A stretch of DNA of 64,000 bases from Nitrospirota bacterium (GTDB lineage Bacteria; Nitrospirota; JACRHL01). The position numbers were made by a program, and so were the translations under genes. The DNA lies in contig JACRHL010000010.1 of the NCBI GenBank assembly GCA_016212085.1, forward strand, positions 1-64,000, in the 5' to 3' direction. The notes under the pieces were generated by a model. It saw only the letters and a program-made list of their open reading frames with translations. It was not told where the DNA came from and did not search any database. Shown here in pieces: positions 24,343 to 63,141 of this stretch; position 1 is the first letter of the stretch; every line of letters starts with the position of its first letter.

Positions 24343-24364
24343 ATACCGGCCACGGCTTTGGGAA

Positions 24365-24446
24365 GGGCACCGGCCACGGCTTTTCCGCCGGAGCCTGCGT
24401 TGTCGCTTCGCAAGCGATCCTCGACATGGCGCTGCCGTGCCTGCGG
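24365..24446. repeat. 82-bp dispersed repeat R2, copy A
   Basis: These 82 bp match 61576-61657 with about seven differences and no gaps. The core includes GGCCACGGCTTTTCCGCCGG. Just upstream, at 24346-24361, a partial duplicate of the first 16 bases is present. Both copies follow a gene end and are read in the same orientation. The nature of the repeat is unknown. Confidence 0.85.
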
Positions 24447-24623
24447 CCGTTTTTCATTCCGTCCCGTTTCATGGACCGTTTCCGCCGCCTTTTCGGCGGG
24501 CGAGAACGGGGTGCCGGTTTGTGGCCGCCCGGTCACACCCCTTGACAGGGGACAAAACGGGTGACATATTTCCAGACATGATTTTTTCTTCGAAATGCAT
24601 TATCAATTGTTTTTACAGTAATA

Positions 24624-25970: not shown

Positions 25971-26453
25971 ATGGAACCCGAGGCCCTCAAGGACATCACC
26001 GCCATTTTGCAGGCGGCCATCTCGCCGGTGGCGCTGTTGTCCGGGGTGGGCCTGCTGTTGCTGTCGCTCACCAACCGCTGGGGGCGGGTGGCGGATCGGG
26101 CGCGGGCCCTGAGCGAGCAGCGTCACACGGCGGCGCCGGAGGAGATCGACAACCTGGATACCCAGACCCGCATCCTTTACCGGCGCGCCCGGATCCTGCG
26201 CGCCTCCATCAGCCTGGCTGCCGCCAGCATCCTGTTCGCAAGCCTGCTGATCGTCGCCCTGTTTCTCGCCTACCTGTTCCAGGTGTCGGTGCGGTTCTGG
26301 CTGATCGGCCTGTTCGCGGTGAGCTTCGCCGCCCTGATCCCCTCGATCCTCCTGCTGATGCAGGACGCGGGCATGTCCCTGCGCGCCCTGCGCCTGGAGC
26401 TGGACGCCCACCACGCCCGCGGCGCCCACGGGCCGCCGGACGGCAGCCCGTAG
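25971..26453 (+). CDS. DUF2721 family inner-membrane protein
   Basis: A 160-residue protein of the DUF2721 family, recognised from ITAILQAAISPVALLSGVG, the following LTNRWGRVADRARAL and two further hydrophobic helices (about residues 80-105 and 110-127). The layout is one helix, a charged cytoplasmic loop, then a hairpin of two helices. The function of the family is unknown. The stop codon TAG shares its last base with the first base of a mobile element copy (26453-26616), and the target duplication CGTA preserves the stop. It is probably a single-gene unit. Confidence 0.88.
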   Translation: MEPEALKDITAILQAAISPVALLSGVGLLLLSLTNRWGRVADRARALSEQRHTAAPEEIDNLDTQTRILYRRARILRASISLAAASILFASLLIVALFLAYLFQVSVRFWLIGLFAVSFAALIPSILLLMQDAGMSLRALRLELDAHHARGAHGPPDGSP

Positions 26454-26616
26454 GGCACCTCTATTAACCTGCTGCACGCCCCGATTGCTGCGTTGGGCGG
26501 TGCTCGAACCTTCGCCTATCACCATGATATGTCTCGGGTTCTGCGCGGCGTAACGGTGCCGCTCCGCTCGGGGCGCCTTGCACTCGGGGCGCTCGCGACG
26601 GTTAATAGAAGTGCCC
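26453..26616. mobile_element. MITE-like element R1, copy 1 (164 bp)
   Basis: The element begins GGGCACCTCTATTAACC and ends with the inverse (GGTTAATAGAAGTGCCC, one mismatch). It is flanked by the 4-bp direct repeat CGTA (26449-26452 and 26617-26620). It encodes no transposase. The interior is a long imperfect palindrome. The insertion sits exactly at the stop codon of the DUF2721 gene. Three more copies lie at 28304, 30157 and 41923. Confidence 0.92.
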
Positions 26617-28084: not shown

Positions 28085-28259
28085 GCAACACTCCTGTTCA
28101 GGAAAAAGTGGGACCCAGCGGCCATTCTACCCCCTTTTCCGTTCAGGGATAATTAAAGGCGGGGGGTGGCCGTTTTCCGCGCCGTGTCGTAGCATCGAAA
28201 AAAGCGGACCGCCGTGCGCCATGTGGGGTGGATGGCGGCCTTTCCTCCGGCCTTCGAGA

Positions 28260-29570
28260 ATGCGCCCTCCCGTGACACGATCGGCATCGCTCCGCTTAGC
28301 CCTGGGCACCTCCATTAACCTGCTGCGCGCCCCGATTGCTGCGTTGGGCGGTGCTCGAACCCTCGCCTATCACCATGATATGTCTCGGGTTCTGCGCTCC
28401 GTCCGCCTTGCACTCAGGGCGCTCGCGACGGTTAATAGAGGTGCCCCCCTGTGCGCCCTGGCGCTGGCCGCGTTGGTGGCGGGCTGCGCCGGCGGCCCGC
28501 CGGCACCGGAGCGGCTGGAGCGCGCCGCCCAGGAGGCGCGCGTGGCCTTTGCCACCGGCCAGAAGCTGCTCCGGGAGGGGCGGGCCGAAAAGGCCACCGT
28601 GTGGATCCGCCGCGCCGCCCTGGAGGGCAACCCGGACGCCCAGCGCTGGCTGGCCGCCGCCTATACCCAGGGCATCTACGGCCTGCCGCAGGACGGCGAC
28701 GAGGCGCTGTACTGGTTCCACCGCTTCCGCGCCCAGGTGCCGTCGGGCCCGGTGCTGGTGCTGGTGGAGCCGGGCGACCTGCCCGCGCCCCTGGAGGAGC
28801 GCGACACCCGCGCCGTGCGGCGCCTGCGCGAGCGGGTCGAGGCGGGCGATACCGAGGCCCGCTATCGGCTGGCGGAGCTGTATCACGAGGGGGTGGCGCT
28901 GCCGGTGGACGACGTGGAGGCGGCCGACCTGCTGAAGGGTGCCGCCGCCCAGGGCCACGCGGAGGCGGCGCGCCTGCTGGGGCTGCTCTACCGCGACGGC
29001 AGGGGGGTGGTGCAGGACGGCACGCTGGCGGTGCGCTGGCTCACGGTGGCCGCCGACCCGGGGCACGACGGCGCCCAGTTCGACCTGGCGGAGATGTACG
29101 ACCTGGGCCTGGCGGTGGCCCGGGACAGCTCCAGGGCCTTCGAGTGGTACACCCGGGCGGCGGCGCGCGGCCACACGGTGGCGCGCTACCGGCTGGCCCG
29201 GCGCTACCAGTATGGCGACGGCGTGGCGCGCGACGCGGAGCAGGCGGCGCGCTGGTACCAGCGTGCCGCGGAGCAGGGCCACGCCCCCTCGCAGATCCAG
29301 CTTGCCGCCATGTACCTGAAGGGCGAGGGGGTGCGGCCGGACGGCAAGGAGGCGGCCCACTGGTTGCAGCAGGCGGCCCTTTCCGGCGCCCGCGAGGCGC
29401 ACCTGCTGCTGGGCATGATGTACGCCCAGGGGCAGCTCATCCCCCAGGACTACGCGTTCGCCCGCGCCTACCTGGCCGAGGCGGCCAAGCTGGGCGACAC
29501 CCAGGCGCAGGCGGTGCTCGACTGCCTGCTCGACTGGGGCTGCCGCGAGCGCCAGTATCCGCCCAAGTAG
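28260..29570 (+). CDS. Sel1-repeat lipoprotein with mobile element inserted in its signal peptide
   Basis: The mature part has about seven Sel1 (TPR-like) repeats, for example AQFDLAEMYDLGLAVARDSS and YRLARRYQYGDGVARD, and probably binds other proteins at the outer membrane. The signal peptide is split. ATG 28260 begins MRPPVTRSASLRLAL, then 49 codons derived from a mobile element follow, then CALALAALVAGC with the lipobox cysteine. Removing the element and one 4-bp target copy (147 bp) restores a normal signal peptide in frame. The frame stays open through the element, and an ATG inside it (28380) would give a 36-residue signal peptide with an Arg-rich start. Which start is used, and whether export still works, is unknown. 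Confidence 0.85.
   Translation: MRPPVTRSASLRLALGTSINLLRAPIAALGGARTLAYHHDMSRVLRSVRLALRALATVNRGAPLCALALAALVAGCAGGPPAPERLERAAQEARVAFATGQKLLREGRAEKATVWIRRAALEGNPDAQRWLAAAYTQGIYGLPQDGDEALYWFHRFRAQVPSGPVLVLVEPGDLPAPLEERDTRAVRRLRERVEAGDTEARYRLAELYHEGVALPVDDVEAADLLKGAAAQGHAEAARLLGLLYRDGRGVVQDGTLAVRWLTVAADPGHDGAQFDLAEMYDLGLAVARDSSRAFEWYTRAAARGHTVARYRLARRYQYGDGVARDAEQAARWYQRAAEQGHAPSQIQLAAMYLKGEGVRPDGKEAAHWLQQAALSGAREAHLLLGMMYAQGQLIPQDYAFARAYLAEAAKLGDTQAQAVLDCLLDWGCRERQYPPK
28304..28446. mobile_element. MITE-like element R1, copy 2 (143 bp), in frame inside a gene
   Basis: Ends are GGGCACCTCCATTAACC and GGTTAATAGAGGTGCCC. The target duplication CCCT occurs at 28300-28303 and 28447-28450. This short form lacks 21 bp present in copies 1 and 3. 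Length plus duplication is 147 bp, that is 49 codons, and neither the inserted frame nor the junctions create a stop in the host gene. Confidence 0.94.
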
Positions 29571-29576
29571 GGGCGC

Positions 29577-29737
29577 CGCGCCACCCATCCAATGGGGCGC
29601 CCGTCCGCGCGGTGGCCCGATTGCCCTTGTCATCCGCCGGTCACCCGCCCCACGGTGCGCCGCGCGCCGCCCATCCAAGGGGGCGCCAGCCCGCGCGGTG
29701 GCCTGACTCCCCTTGTCATCCGCCGGTCATCCGCCCG
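29577..29737. repeat. Dispersed repeat R3, two tandem copies
   Basis: Two 75-bp units (29577-29651 and 29663-29737) are about 85 percent identical and share CGCGCGGTGGCC and CATCCGCCGGTCA. Related units occur at 62971-63141, and inverted cores (TCAGGCCACCGCGCG) occur near 53978 and 54363. They sit between genes. The second copy ends just before the ferredoxin gene and may overlap its promoter. Confidence 0.75.
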
Positions 29738-30156: not shown

Positions 30157-30320
30157 GGGCACCTCTATTAACCTGCTGCGCGCTCCGATTGCTGCGCCCA
30201 GCGGTGCTCGAACCCTTGCCTATCACCAAGATATGTCTCGGGTTCTGCGCGGCGTAACGGTGCCGCTCCGCTCGGGGCGCCTTGCACTCGGACCGCTCGC
30301 GACGGTTAATAGAGGTGTCC
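30157..30320. mobile_element. MITE-like element R1, copy 3 (164 bp)
   Basis: It begins GGGCACCTCTATTAACC and ends GGTTAATAGAGGTGTCC (one mismatch in the outer arm). The target duplication ACAA lies at 30153-30156 and 30321-30324. The right-hand ACAA touches the AGGAGG ribosome site of the pentapeptide gene, so the element separates that gene from any older promoter. The open frame in the element runs in phase into the gene. Confidence 0.93.
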
Positions 30321-30334
30321 ACAAGGAGGCTCCC

Positions 30335-30736
30335 ATGGCCGACGGCTTCGCCACCAAACCGACCCACGCCACCATCCCCGACACCTGGAGTGCCGAGGGC
30401 CCCGCCTGCACCGAGGGCCCCAGCGAGCTCTCGGAGATGCTGCGCCACGGCTGCTACGACGATTTCAACGCCAACGTGGCCAAGTGCGGCTCGGCCAACC
30501 TGGTCGGCGCCAACCTGCGCATGGCCGACCTGACCCGCGCCAACCTGAAGGGGGCGGACCTTAGGAACGCCTACCTGCGCGCCTGCGACCTGCGCGGCCA
30601 GGACCTTTCGGGGTGCAACCTGGACGGGGCCAGCCTGCACGACGCCAAGGTGAGCGGCGTGCTGTTTCCCGCCAACCTGGACGCCCAGGAGATCATCATG
30701 AGCGTGGAGCTGGGCACGCGCATGCGCGTCCGCTAG
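30335..30736 (+). CDS. Small pentapeptide-repeat protein
   Basis: A 133-residue protein. ATG 30335 has an ideal AAGGAGG site six nt upstream. After a 60-residue leader part, tandem A(D/N)LxX repeats run from about residue 58 (ANLVGANLRMADLTRANLKG) to residue 100, which would fold as a right-handed four-sided helix, followed by a short C-terminal tail. No signal peptide is seen. The function is unknown; some pentapeptide proteins mimic DNA, others scaffold. A decayed copy of its 3' end lies downstream at 31273-31390. Confidence 0.85.
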   Translation: MADGFATKPTHATIPDTWSAEGPACTEGPSELSEMLRHGCYDDFNANVAKCGSANLVGANLRMADLTRANLKGADLRNAYLRACDLRGQDLSGCNLDGASLHDAKVSGVLFPANLDAQEIIMSVELGTRMRVR

Positions 30737-37255: not shown

Positions 37256-38644
37256 TCAGCCCGTGCGGCGCAGGCGCGCCAGGCTGAACATGGACACGCC
37301 GGCGGCGGCGGCGGTGAGGAACGCCAGGGTGATGCTGCCGGCGGTGGTGGCGTGGGCGGAAAAGGCGCCCGCGTAGAGCGCCAGGGTGCCGGGCACGGCA
37401 AACAGGGCCAGCCCCCGTGCCAGCCAGCGCATGCCGGACCAGATGGGCAGGCGCTCGCCCCGGGGCCGGGGCAGGTGCCAGTCCGGCGCCAGCGGGGCGC
37501 TGCCGTCCGGCAGGCGCCGGGGCAGCCGGGCGCGGGCGCGGGCCAGGTGTTGCAGGGCGCCGTGCAGCCACAGGTGGCTGAGCAGCAGCAGCAGCGGCAG
37601 GGCCAGCGCCACCAGGATGGGGTGCACCAGGGTGCCGAACACCGGCAGGCGCACCGGCGCCCCCGGCAGCATCAGCGTGGGGGTGAGCGCCAGGGCGGCG
37701 TAGAGGCAGGCGAACAGGGTCAGCCCCAGCACCCGGTTGACCCCCGCCGCCAGGGCGTGGGCGTGGGCCACGGCGGGCCCCAGCGGGTCTCCGGGAGGCA
37801 GCGTGGCGTGGCTCAGGTCCGCCCCGGCCAGGGCGATGGCGGGCAGCGGCGCCAGGTCCGTCAGGTCGGCGCGGGCACCGTGGACGCCGCCGCTGTCGAG
37901 CCACTGCCGGTGGCGCTCCAGGCGTGCCGCCACCTGGGCAAGGCGGTCGGCGGGGCCACCGGGAACCGGCGCGGCGAGGGGACGCGCGGCGGCGGGCGTT
38001 GCGGCGGGTGCTTCGGCGGCCGGGGCAGTCGCGCCGGCCGGGCCGGGCAGCTCCTCCAGGTCCGCGTCGGGCAGTTCGGAGACCGGCGTCAGCTCCGGCG
38101 CGCCGTACACCTGGTCCGCCTCGAAGGCGGCGTCCATCCCGTCGCCGGTGAAGCGGGTGCCGGACATGTTGGCGCCGGTCATGATGGCGCTCTCCACGTT
38201 GGCGCCGGTCAGGTCGGCCCCGTCCAGCTCGGCGCCGGTGAGGTTGGCGCGCACCAGGCGCGCGCCGGTCAGCTCGGCGTCGGGCAGGATGGCGTCGGTC
38301 AGGTCGGCGTCGGTCAGGTCGGCCTCCGACAGGTTGGCCCAGGTGAGGTCGGCGCCCACCAGGGTGGCGGCGCACAACTCGGCGCCCGCCAGCGTGGCGC
38401 GGGCCAGGCTGGCGTGGTCCAGCACGGTGTGGGTGAGGTCGGCGCGGGACAGGTCGGCCCCGGTGAGCAGGGCGCGGCACAGGTTGATGCCGGACAGGTC
38501 GGCATCGGCCAGGTTGGCACCCATCAGGTCGGCGCGCCGGCCGTGCTCGCCGCCGGACGCCAGCCAGCGGGCGTGATCGTCCAGGATGCCGCGCAGGGCG
38601 TCGGGGTCGGGCTGGGGGCGGTGTGGATGGGCGACGGTGGCCAT
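37256..38644 (-). CDS. Pentapeptide-repeat membrane protein
   Basis: A 462-residue protein. Residues 38-180 are about 28 pentapeptide repeats (ADLSGINLCRALLTGADLSR and so on), followed by a Pro/Ala-rich linker, a short second repeat-like stretch (DLTDLAPLPAIALAGADLSH), and three or four hydrophobic helices in the C-terminal 180 residues. An N-terminal part (HARWLASGGEHGRRADL) recurs before the second stretch (HRQWLDSGGVHGARADL), so the protein has an internal duplication of 'xxxWLxSGGxHGxRADL'. The repeat helix probably lies in the cytoplasm. ATG 38644 has no strong ribosome site. The function is unknown. Confidence 0.85.
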   Translation of the reverse strand: MATVAHPHRPQPDPDALRGILDDHARWLASGGEHGRRADLMGANLADADLSGINLCRALLTGADLSRADLTHTVLDHASLARATLAGAELCAATLVGADLTWANLSEADLTDADLTDAILPDAELTGARLVRANLTGAELDGADLTGANVESAIMTGANMSGTRFTGDGMDAAFEADQVYGAPELTPVSELPDADLEELPGPAGATAPAAEAPAATPAAARPLAAPVPGGPADRLAQVAARLERHRQWLDSGGVHGARADLTDLAPLPAIALAGADLSHATLPPGDPLGPAVAHAHALAAGVNRVLGLTLFACLYAALALTPTLMLPGAPVRLPVFGTLVHPILVALALPLLLLLSHLWLHGALQHLARARARLPRRLPDGSAPLAPDWHLPRPRGERLPIWSGMRWLARGLALFAVPGTLALYAGAFSAHATTAGSITLAFLTAAAAGVSMFSLARLRRTG

Positions 38645-41922: not shown

Positions 41923-42065
41923 GGGCACCTCTCAAAACCTGCTGCGCGGTTCGATTGCTGCGTTGGGCGGTGCTCGGCCCCTCTCCTATCCGTTGGATAT
42001 GTCTCGGGTCCTCCGCTCCGTCCGCCTTGCACTCGAACCGCTCGCGACGGTTTTGAGAGGTGCCC
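41923..42065. mobile_element. MITE-like element R1, copy 4 (143 bp, variant arms)
   Basis: Ends are GGGCACCTCTCAAAACC and GGTTTTGAGAGGTGCCC, perfectly inverted. The inner arm differs from the other copies (CAAA instead of ATTA), and the right arm carries the matching change. The flanks are GCTA (41919-41922) and GTTA (42066-42069), an imperfect 4-bp duplication. It lies directly at the 3' end of the last phage gene. Confidence 0.92.
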
Positions 42066-53673: not shown

Positions 53674-54034
53674 CACCGTTTGCCTCCTTGCGACCGACCG
53701 GCGTCGTCCCGTCTCGCCCGAAAGAACCCAGAACCCCGGCGGCGGGTTCCCGGCCCGGCGCCGCCAGGGGCACCGGGTGCGGATGCGCCGGGGAGGGCCG
53801 GTCTCACGGGAGGCGGCCAGTCCATTCAGCCGTTCGATCCGCCCTTCCCGGCCGGCGCCTCCCCGACGCACGGCGAATTGTGCCGCCCCCGCCAAACCGC
53901 CGGATTGCGTTTCCTGCGCCTCTTGCGGAACTTGCGTTCTTCGCACCGGGCGGACCGATCGCGGGTGGATTGGGAGGTCAGGCCACCGCGCGGAAGACGC
54001 CCATATGGATGGGGCAGGGCGCGTTGGGGATGGC

Positions 54035-54133
54035 GTAGGTTGGGCAGAATGCAATGAAGCCCAACACCCCCGTGGCCGGACCCACGGCGCTCCGCGTGGG
54101 CGTTGGGCTTCGCGTTGGTCTGCCCAACCCACG
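54035..54133. repeat. Palindromic repeat R4, unit 1
   Basis: The left arm GTAGGTTGGGCAGAATGCAA continues to GAAGCCCAAC. The right arm has GTTGGGCTTCGCGTTGG and ends in CTGCCCAACCCACG. The outer parts pair (GTAGGTTGGGCAGA against TCTGCCCAACCCAC), with a GC-rich loop between. Confidence 0.85.
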
Positions 54134-54210
54134 ACCCTGCGCGGCGGAAGCCCATCTGGATGGGGGAGGGCGGCGCGTTGGGGGACGGCGCCGGTTGGCG
54201 CCGAATGGGG

Positions 54211-54310
54211 CGTAGGTTGGGCAGAATGCAATGAAGCCCAACACCCCCGTGGCCGGACCCACGGCGCTCCGCGCGGGCGTTGGGCTTCGCGTTGCGCTTC
54301 CCAACCTACG
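54211..54310. repeat. Palindromic repeat R4, unit 2
   Basis: Almost identical to unit 1 over the left arm and loop (CCCCCGTGGCCGGACCCACG). The outer ends CGTAGGTTGG and CCAACCTACG are perfect inverted repeats. It lies 176 bp after unit 1 in the same orientation. Confidence 0.88.
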
Positions 54311-54427
54311 GACCTGCGGTCGGCGTACCCGGGCGGACCGGGCGTGGAAGGGATTGGGGAATCAGGCCACCGCGCGAAGGTAGCCCATATGGATTATGAA
54401 GAGCGGCGCGGTTGGGATCGGGGGAGG

Positions 54428-54523
54428 GTAGGTTGGGCAGAGCAGCGCGAAGCCCAACGCCCGCGCGGCCTGCCACGGCGCGGCCACCAGGGCACGTTGG
54501 GCTTCATTGCATTCCGCGCCAAC
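54428..54523. repeat. Palindromic repeat R4, unit 3, arms exchanged
   Basis: Same outer frame, but the left arm has the GCGCGAAGCCCAAC version and the right arm has GTTGGGCTTCATTGCATTC, the reverse of units 1 and 2. The unit is thus inverted relative to them. It ends 68 bp before the TIR gene. Confidence 0.85.
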
Positions 54524-54591
54524 GCCCTTGGCGCCACCGCCCCCCCCTGGCGTATCATCCCCCCCACCAGCAACCTGCTACGGAGCCCGCC

Positions 54592-55674
54592 ATGGCCAAC
54601 TCGAAACATCTCGCAATCCTGAAGCAGGGGGTGGGGACGTGGAATCAGTGGCGAGAGGCCAATCCGCGTGTTGCGCCGGACCTCAGTCAGGCGGACCTTA
54701 TCGGGGCGCGCCTCAGCGATGTGGACCTCCGTCGGACGGCCCTCAACCAGGCGCGCCTCAGCGATGTGGACCTCCGTCGGGCGGACCTCAGCTGGGCGGA
54801 CCTCCGCTGGGCGCACCTCAGCTGGGCGGACCTCCGCGAGGCAAACCTCAGCAGGGCGGACCTCCGCGGGGCGAACCTCCGCCGGGCGGACCTCCGCCGG
54901 GCGGACCTCCGCGAGGCAAACCTCAGCGGGGTGGACCTCAGCGAGGCGGACCTCAGCAGGGCGGTGGTAAACTCCTCTCGGTTTTTTCAAACCATTTTGA
55001 CGGGGACTTCGTTTGCTAATGCCCGCATGGACGAAACCGTATTCAGCGACGTAAACCTCTCTGCGGCCATCGGCCTGGAAACCTGTGACCATAGGGGTCC
55101 AAGTTCCCTCGACATCCGCACACTGACCCGCTCCAGCACCCTTCCCGAGGCCTTCCTGCGCGGCTGCGGCCTCCCGGATAGCTGGATCACCTACCTGCCG
55201 TCCCTGCGCGGCGACCCCATCCAGTTCTACTCCTGCTTCATCAGCCACGCCGCCGTGGACGAGGCCTTCGTCAAACGCCTGTACGACGCGCTGCAAGGGA
55301 AGGGGGTGCGCTGCTGGTACGCGCCGGAGGATTTCAAGACCGGCGATCGGCTGTGGGACACCATCGACCAGGCCATCAAGCGCCACGACAAGCTGCTGAT
55401 CGTGTTGTCGGAACAATCACTGCAAAGCGAGTGGGTGGAGCGGGAGGTGAACAAGGCCATGGCCGAGGAGAACCGCCGCCGCAAGGAGACCGGCGAGAAG
55501 CACGACGTGCTGTTTCCCATCCGCATCGACGATGCCGTGATGAAAAGCGATGAGGCGTGGGCCACCCATCTGCGCGACAACCGCCACATCGGCGATTTCC
55601 GCCGGTGGAAGGATCACGACGCCTTCGAAAAGGCCTTCGAGCGCCTGTTGCGCGACCTGAAGAACGCCGGATAG
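54592..55674 (+). CDS. Pentapeptide-repeat TIR-domain protein, candidate defence gene
   Basis: A 360-residue protein. Residues 30-125 are about 19 pentapeptide repeats (LSWADLRWAHLSWADLREAN). At DNA level these are near-identical 15- and 30-bp repeats (54690-54965), indicating recent expansion. A TIR domain follows from about residue 203 (FYSCFISHAAVDEAFVKRLY; VRCWYAPEDFKTGD; LLIVLSEQSLQSEWVEREV). The Glu at 285 in WVERE matches the catalytic Glu of NADase TIR domains. TIR effectors in bacteria degrade NAD or make signals on phage infection. There is no obvious partner gene. ATG 54592 has only a weak ribosome site (CGGAG). Confidence 0.88.
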   Translation: MANSKHLAILKQGVGTWNQWREANPRVAPDLSQADLIGARLSDVDLRRTALNQARLSDVDLRRADLSWADLRWAHLSWADLREANLSRADLRGANLRRADLRRADLREANLSGVDLSEADLSRAVVNSSRFFQTILTGTSFANARMDETVFSDVNLSAAIGLETCDHRGPSSLDIRTLTRSSTLPEAFLRGCGLPDSWITYLPSLRGDPIQFYSCFISHAAVDEAFVKRLYDALQGKGVRCWYAPEDFKTGDRLWDTIDQAIKRHDKLLIVLSEQSLQSEWVEREVNKAMAEENRRRKETGEKHDVLFPIRIDDAVMKSDEAWATHLRDNRHIGDFRRWKDHDAFEKAFERLLRDLKNAG

Positions 55675-61556: not shown

Positions 61557-61575
61557 CACGGGCGCCGTTTGGGAT

Positions 61576-61657
61576 GGGCACCGGCCACGGCTTTTCCGCC
61601 GGAGCCTGCGTTGTCGCTTCAAAACCGATCCTCGACATAGCGCTGCTATGCCTGCGG
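61576..61657. repeat. 82-bp dispersed repeat R2, copy B
   Basis: It matches 24365-24446 with about seven differences. Like copy A it lies just after a plus-strand gene (stop at 61554-61556). Its GHGFSAG-coding frame has no start codon of its own. Confidence 0.85.
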
Positions 61658-61750
61658 TGGCTTTGTCGTTCCGCCTTGGCTCGCGAAAAAATCGGAGGCC
61701 TACGTGGGTTTTGGAGGGGGAGGGCGCGTAACCCCTGGTGATCCGGCCAC

Positions 61751-61838
61751 CGTTGGCGCTGAATGCAATGAAGCCCAACACCCCGGTGGGCCGTGGCAGG
61801 CTGCGGGGGCGTTGGGCTTCGCTCCGCTCTGCCCAACG
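61751..61838. repeat. Palindromic repeat R4, unit 4
   Basis: The left arm is CGTTGGCGCTGAATGCAATG followed by AAGCCCAAC. The right arm is GTTGGGCTTCGCTCCGCTC and ends in TGCCCAACG. Same orientation as units 1 and 2. Confidence 0.82.
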
Positions 61839-62890: not shown

Positions 62891-62970
62891 CGCCATGCCG
62901 GACCCCCACCCACGCCCCCACGAACACCACCGCCGCCATGCCCGCCCGGCCACCCATCCCCGGCGCCGCC

Positions 62971-63141
62971 CCCCACAATCCAATGGTCCGCCGTCCGCGC
63001 GGTGGCCTGATCAGTTAATCCATCCGCCGATGATCCGCTGCGATCACGCCGGCCGCAGGTCCGGGTCGCGCGCCATCATCCAAATGGGCTATGTCCGCAC
63101 GGTGGCCTGATCCGGCCATCCATCCGCCGGTTGTCCGCCCG
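62971..63141. repeat. Dispersed repeat R3, two further copies
   Basis: Units at 62971-63040 and 63068-63141 share GCGCGGTGGCCTGATC (or GCACGGTGGCCTGATC) and CCATCCGCCGG with the pair at 29577-29737. The second unit ends at the stop of the 63143 gene, so the pair lies between convergent genes. Confidence 0.7.

Follow-up and report, generated by a model that had tools for sequence, protein, structure and literature searches.

A Sel1-repeat lipoprotein gene in the window (the whole 64,000-nucleotide stretch of DNA analysed) carries a short mobile element in the region encoding its signal peptide, which raises the question of what such an insertion does to the gene and why it is found there. The sequence-only reading of this DNA had placed the element in frame within the lipoprotein signal peptide, and both its coordinates and its arithmetic hold: the element plus one copy of the CCCT target duplication is 147 bp, exactly 49 codons. 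To read an empty site, we left out the element together with one copy of its duplication; signal peptides were assessed from hydropathy and by visual inspection. Treated in this way the gene reads MRPPVTRSASLRLAL joined to CALALAALVAGC, a classical lipoprotein signal peptide, as had been proposed. This empty site is a reconstruction rather than an observed sequence; searches for orthologues of the focal Sel1 protein yielded none that is close. By inspection the gene has an n-region, an h-region and a lipobox of the pattern [LVI][ASTVI][GAS]C, seen as CALALAA and then LVAGC. The frame is still open with the element present, and the element offers an in-frame ATG at 28380, which reads MSRVLRSVRLALRALATVNRGAPLCALALAALVAGC and begins an Arg-rich n-region; here too the sequence agrees with the earlier reading. 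The start codon of the gene is uncertain among four in-frame candidates, ATG 28221, ATG 28260, GTG 28272 and ATG 28380, the last within the element. No clear ribosome-binding site (Shine-Dalgarno) is obvious at any of the four, and neither a sigma-70 promoter nor a terminator was found in 28085-28480.

Table 1. Element copies and features of the focal gene in the window, and copies inside genes of the source genome (G000) and of a distant genome (G184). Locations with .. are window positions; a slash in an empty site marks the point of insertion.
Feature	Location	Strand	Details
Long MITE copy 1, 164 bp	26453..26616	+	Intergenic, abuts stop codon; duplication CGTA
Native 5' coding segment (n-region, beginning of h-region)	28260..28303	+	MRPPVTRSASLRLAL (empty-site translation)
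Target-site duplication, left copy	28300..28303	+	CCCT (sequence)
Short MITE copy in focal Sel1 lipoprotein, signal-peptide coding region	28304..28446 (C4:28304)	+	143 bp, ends GGGCACCTC...GAGGTGCCC
Element-derived alternative ATG and Arg-rich n-region	28380..28446	+	MSRVLRSVRLALRALATVNRGA; in-frame reading, candidate start
Target-site duplication, right copy	28447..28450	+	CCCT (sequence)
Rest of h-region and lipobox LVAGC	28451..28487	+	Cys codon 28485-28487 (sequence)
Mature Sel1-repeat lipoprotein	28488..29570	+	Pfam PF08238, seven stretches, E=1e-52
Long MITE copy 3, 164 bp	30157..30320	+	Upstream of pentapeptide-repeat gene; duplication ACAA
Short MITE copy 4	41923..42065	+	Intergenic; near-duplication GCTA/GTTA
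Second Sel1 protein	C4:69363		Signal peptide ...RALPLLAALALGLALLASPAHA-QS; beside remnant of an older element
TolB-like beta-propeller protein	C22:250763		Signal peptide; empty site (TTG)KRL/IPLLALLVWLVTGREAHA
Omp85 with POTRA domains	C22:263264		Signal peptide; empty site MRSPVARFMV/LAAALLLAAWVPAARA
Unnamed protein (C3 protein)	C3:78650		Signal peptide; empty site (GTG)RRLTKAAARLAAMLL/SATVLAILGPNGAEA
TPR protein	C5:335		Signal peptide
QueC	C15:350312		After codon 6; empty site MNTGQT/(RK)AVVLVSGGLDS
DnaE	C15:345640		Internal, variable loop; empty site YPLG/IRYGLGG
G184 protein	G184 C41		Empty site MK/KKAAILGLVLLCTLVTGDRVWA-QLK; duplication TGAA
G184 protein with two CxxCH haem motifs	G184 C91		Empty site MIEQKQRRFLK/PSLILMAAIWIVVVTAIALEA; duplication TAAA

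The element is a non-autonomous fold-back MITE with ends GGGCACCTCTnnnAACC and 4-bp target duplications. It has the features of that class, being short and multicopy, lacking a transposase gene, carrying terminal inverted repeats (GGGCACCTCTnnnAACC at both ends) and being flanked by a target duplication. DNA, pattern and covariance-model searches combined gave about 124 copies in the source genome (2.70 Mb in 23 contigs), degenerate ones counted. The full-length copies are chiefly of 143 bp (n=45) and 164 bp (n=14), with smaller groups of 144 and 165-166 bp, and many are 90-97% identical to the focal copy. As the sequence-only reading had calculated, the long form with its duplication is 168 bp, also a multiple of three, and the long and short forms differ by 21 bp. 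The duplication is exact at 55 of the 97 full-length copies and has a one-base mismatch at 13 more, with no target consensus apparent. The element strand forms a foldback (-76.9 kcal/mol, z -7.0), and its three variable end bases co-vary (columns 11-13 versus 159-161, with 16, 30 and 22 two-sided changes). Given the approximately 124 copies, the 55 of 97 exact duplications and the fold z of -7, the insertion is not a chance resemblance. A search for a mobilising IS, made with transposase family PF01609 alone, gave one partial match whose ends do not match those of the element. In the 5-kb stretch compared with Rfam, no model scored high enough against the element to be useful, the exact core pattern was not found in viral contigs, and the sole plasmid match was a 70-nt partial one on the Nitrosomonas plasmid NZ_CP133084.1. 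Four contig ends of the assembly (C15:448149, C16:1, C20:1 and C22:266363) fall within near-identical copies, and hence the MITE breaks the assembly.

The window holds repeats of other kinds as well. Positions 51-564 form a CRISPR-like array with eight copies of a 35-nt repeat (GTTTCAACGCCGACCGGTCGGCATTCCCTTACGGG) at a spacing of 65-69 nt. Another palindromic family (GTAGGTTGGGC...GCCCAACCTAC) has several copies with inverted arms at 53967-54544 and 61790-61837. A third short family (CCCATCCAATGGGGCGCC...CCGCGCGGTGGCC) occurs at 29559-29730, where an 81% identical tandem pair directly follows the focal gene, and at 62949-63034. A 97-bp repeat is found at 24357-24453 and 61568-61664 (90% identical, 37 kb apart), and at 38123-38542 and 54677-54976 a 15-nt unit recurs in long runs, which may encode proteins with five-residue repeats.

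To place the copies relative to genes we used a custom gene finder trained on the codon-position G+C of the sequence fetched around element copies, which is 69% G+C and about three quarters coding. These gene calls place 86 of the 97 full-length copies between genes; another 10 are in contact with the end of a gene, and the remaining copy spans one. Many of the intergenic copies lie 50 bp or less from a gene start or stop. Codon usage scores signal peptides poorly, and every copy was then checked for frames running from the element into a gene. Several intergenic copies before genes with a native ATG just downstream (RuvX-like, IspF-like and pentapeptide genes) were not counted as in-gene, though some of their frames are open; the pentapeptide-repeat gene downstream of MITE copy 3 has its own ATG at 30335, preceded by AAGGAG. 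The copies at window 26453 and at C15:308715, C15:411570 and C23:231973 start at a stop codon: the target contributes TA and the element its initial G, which together read TAG.

Eight copies lie clearly inside genes, all of them in frame: six in signal peptides, one in QueC and one in DnaE (Table 1). The sequence-only reading had proposed a search for other in-frame copies in genes, and the seven besides the focal copy, together with two in the distant genome described below, bear it out. QueC, Omp85, TPR and Sel1 proteins were named by Pfam and DnaE by solved structures; the name TolB-like is presumed from the N-terminal sequence together with a beta-propeller domain match. A ninth copy, in a lipoprotein gene at C20:13266, is ambiguous in that a TTG 3' of the element could be the native start, giving MSRLAPVVLLLLAAC. 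In all nine the length of the element plus four is a multiple of three and the same codon phase is read. The older QueC and TPR copies lack an exact duplication, and that of the second Sel1 copy has one mismatch. This second Sel1 copy lies in a locus (C4:69300-69526, L150) where two elements are stacked, the newer copy, of 164 bp, lying beside an old and degenerate one that ends in ATGGTCAACAGACGTGT.

Six of the affected genes, those of DnaE, QueC, TolB, Omp85, TPR and the C3 protein, are uninterrupted in relatives of the source genome, and no match to the element was found in three genomes of the same family. The focal Sel1 gene, for which the sequence-only reading had suggested such a comparison, is not among the six. 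The DnaE proteins of the three same-family genomes are 69-70% identical to that of the source genome and have a short variable loop where the latter has extra residues; by alignment the insertion point falls between residues of about 820 and 831 of the E. coli alpha subunit. The source genome has one replicative-type DnaE, its other match being just 32% identical. For QueC the relatives read APMSGQS-KKAVVLLSGG versus APMNTGQT-[insert]-RKAVVLVSGG in the source genome. The orthologues of TolB, Omp85, TPR and the C3 protein have signal peptides of ordinary length, and for the C3 protein the region round the start is recognisably homologous. The TolB and Omp85 genes lie about 12 kb apart, and a similar spacing in two related genomes (G002 and G003) supports the orthology of both. 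A rival notion is that the interrupted genes are decaying pseudogenes, their open frames being a by-product of high G+C content. At 69% G+C long open frames are indeed common. However, it is unlikely that the cell could do without dnaE, tolB or an Omp85 gene, the downstream parts of the interrupted genes are intact with full domains, all clear cases use a single phase, and the same pattern recurs in G184, a genome of 53% G+C. We consider decay highly improbable.

That second genome came from a survey of the phylum (296 genomes), in which a small number of scattered families had close relatives of the element and others had matches to its core alone. The covariance model gave 71 matches in G184 and 63 in G240, and the surroundings of 114 of these matches were read; the 4-bp duplication was exact in 53 of 111. 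The distant genome G184 contains two in-frame signal-peptide insertions, both of 143 bp, with exact duplications and in the same phase. A third candidate there, on C112, was rejected, the native ATG being 3' of the element. Among the copies read in G240, where the commonest form is 142 bp (146 bp with its duplication, which is no multiple of three), there was no in-gene case. In genomes of genus g37 (G064, G080, G172, G186, G198, G201 and G278) and in plasmid NZ_CP133084.1 the conserved part is the central 60-80 nt of the element. Such central-core matches suggest an older, wider family with different ends.

Preservation of the frame is by itself modest evidence, as length plus duplication comes to a multiple of three in about two thirds of copies overall. 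All ten clear in-gene cases (eight in the source genome and two in G184) use a single codon phase. This phase 1 is free of stop codons in 55 of 55 intact copies of 143 or 164 bp, versus about 48 expected under a redistribution null (36 of 41 short and 11.7 of 14 long copies) that ignores subfamily structure and phylogeny, and we regard the deficit of stops as suggestive. It might be argued from this deficit that the coding phase of the element is itself under selection, the family having evolved to be readable as protein and so having gained access to genes. Both main forms plus duplication being multiples of three would fit such a history, as would the lack of in-gene cases in G240 with its 142-bp form. 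We think this unlikely, though, given that the null disregards subfamilies, that other open phases also lie slightly above it and that the comparison between genomes is rough.

In-gene copies are strongly depleted overall, amounting to 8-9 of the 124 (about 7%), and those that exist are concentrated at export signals. By crude estimate, an N-terminus resembling a signal peptide is present in about 25% of the called genes, and codons 1-20 of these genes account for about 1.6% of codons. By a similarly crude calculation, the occurrence of seven of nine in-gene copies in signal peptides has a P of about 1e-11, and six of the eight clear cases still gives P < 1e-8. Such a distribution could also arise if the transposase targeted promoter-proximal or signal-peptide DNA, reflecting insertion preference more than survival: most in-gene copies fall within the first 20 codons and, as noted above, many intergenic ones lie close to a gene start or stop. 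The duplications without an apparent consensus and the internal position of the DnaE copy speak against targeting, and survival alone suffices for the pattern; we judge targeting to be quite unlikely.

The explanation that we prefer, and consider very probable, is that a non-autonomous transposon whose insertion preserves the reading frame and which is stop-free in one phase is tolerated in signal peptides, being cleaved off with them. The near absence of copies from coding sequence would mean that most insertions into genes have been eliminated. Survivors would be those at positions where an in-frame insert of 49 or 56 residues is harmless, namely signal peptides, the extreme N-terminus (QueC) and a variable loop (DnaE). 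An insertion in a signal peptide would survive because it adds residues of net positive charge and spares both the hydrophobic core and the cleavage site; the mature protein would be unchanged, as the insert is cleaved off with the signal peptide. In the focal gene the element appears to split the signal peptide after the n-region, leaving a sufficient hydrophobic stretch plus the lipobox, and export of the protein should continue, with lipidation at the Cys whose codon begins at 28485.

Ribosomes may begin at the old start of the focal gene and read through the element, or they may begin within it, for instance at ATG 28380. An ACG-to-ATG change about 20 nt before the element end is present in two of the six signal-peptide copies versus none of 88 others (Fisher P=0.003). 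These two are the TolB and TPR copies, in which this single difference gives a new, better-placed candidate start that may be used. These data raise the possibility that the element is 5' untranslated DNA and that translation starts only inside or after it, the element donating start codons or n-regions. Apart from the ATG of the TolB and TPR copies, usable in-frame starts are an ATG at offset 76 and the TTG AGA GGT of the TCAAAA end variant (MRGA...), and at C20:13266 the TTG that follows the element would serve. Three points weigh on the other side. DnaE seems to need the whole element translated, the G184 C41 copy has no start codon between the element and the hydrophobic core, and in every clear case no stop interrupts the frame between the old start and the far end of the element. 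We regard untranslated DNA as a genuine possibility, though less likely than not. Translation of the whole element seems to be required in DnaE and G184 C41, and elsewhere initiation within the element is possible.

These results suggest that mobile DNA can reside in a gene without harm when it lies in an export signal. A broader proposal, which we put forward as speculative, is that signal peptides are a recurrent refuge for selfish DNA and that this family has adapted to them through its length, its stop-free phase and portable start codons that provide a replacement n-region, and can hence live in essential genes. The hosts of the insertions do include normally essential or important genes (dnaE, tolB). 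Automatic annotation may mis-set the starts of genes with such insertions, and it is now feasible to test transposon remodelling of signal peptides, start-codon donation and the reason why certain element lengths enter genes.

In the literature searched, which covered few subscription papers, we found no report of a single element family that repeatedly splits signal peptides. The element resembles Correia, BOX, RUP and similar repeats in being small, non-autonomous and mostly intergenic; the ends of those bacterial MITEs are family-specific. The nearest precedent is provided by the enterobacterial RU-1, RU-2 and RU-3 repeats (ERIC-type), which are MITE-like, carry ORFs and occur in genes. However, one RU repeat itself supplies a signal peptide, whereas the MITE described here repeatedly splits existing ones with the core kept, and uninterrupted relatives are at hand for it. 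The QMITE1 and QMITE2 elements of Coxiella burnetii are MITEs that overlap ORFs, some in frame, but are of other sizes and have duplications of 2-3 or 7-11 nt rather than 4 bp; the word "signal" is absent from the text of that paper (PMC5896051). Rickettsia palindromic elements, to which the sequence-only reading had likened the element, are palindromic repeats of about 150 bp that encode a conserved peptide and lie in frame in unrelated genes, with nearly half of the copies in R. conorii found in ORFs (PMC10969869). The likeness stands for behaviour: our element is palindromic, fits the size range of that class (about 100-150 bp) and resides in frame in unrelated protein genes. It does not extend further, as only about 7% of copies are in genes, these are mostly in signal peptides, and clear terminal repeats and 4-bp target duplications set the MITE apart; no homology is claimed. 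In-frame mobile DNA in bacterial genes had rested mainly on Rickettsia, and the MITE provides a second case from another lineage, one with uninterrupted relatives for comparison and a simple reason for survival, the removal of the inserted peptide with the signal peptide.
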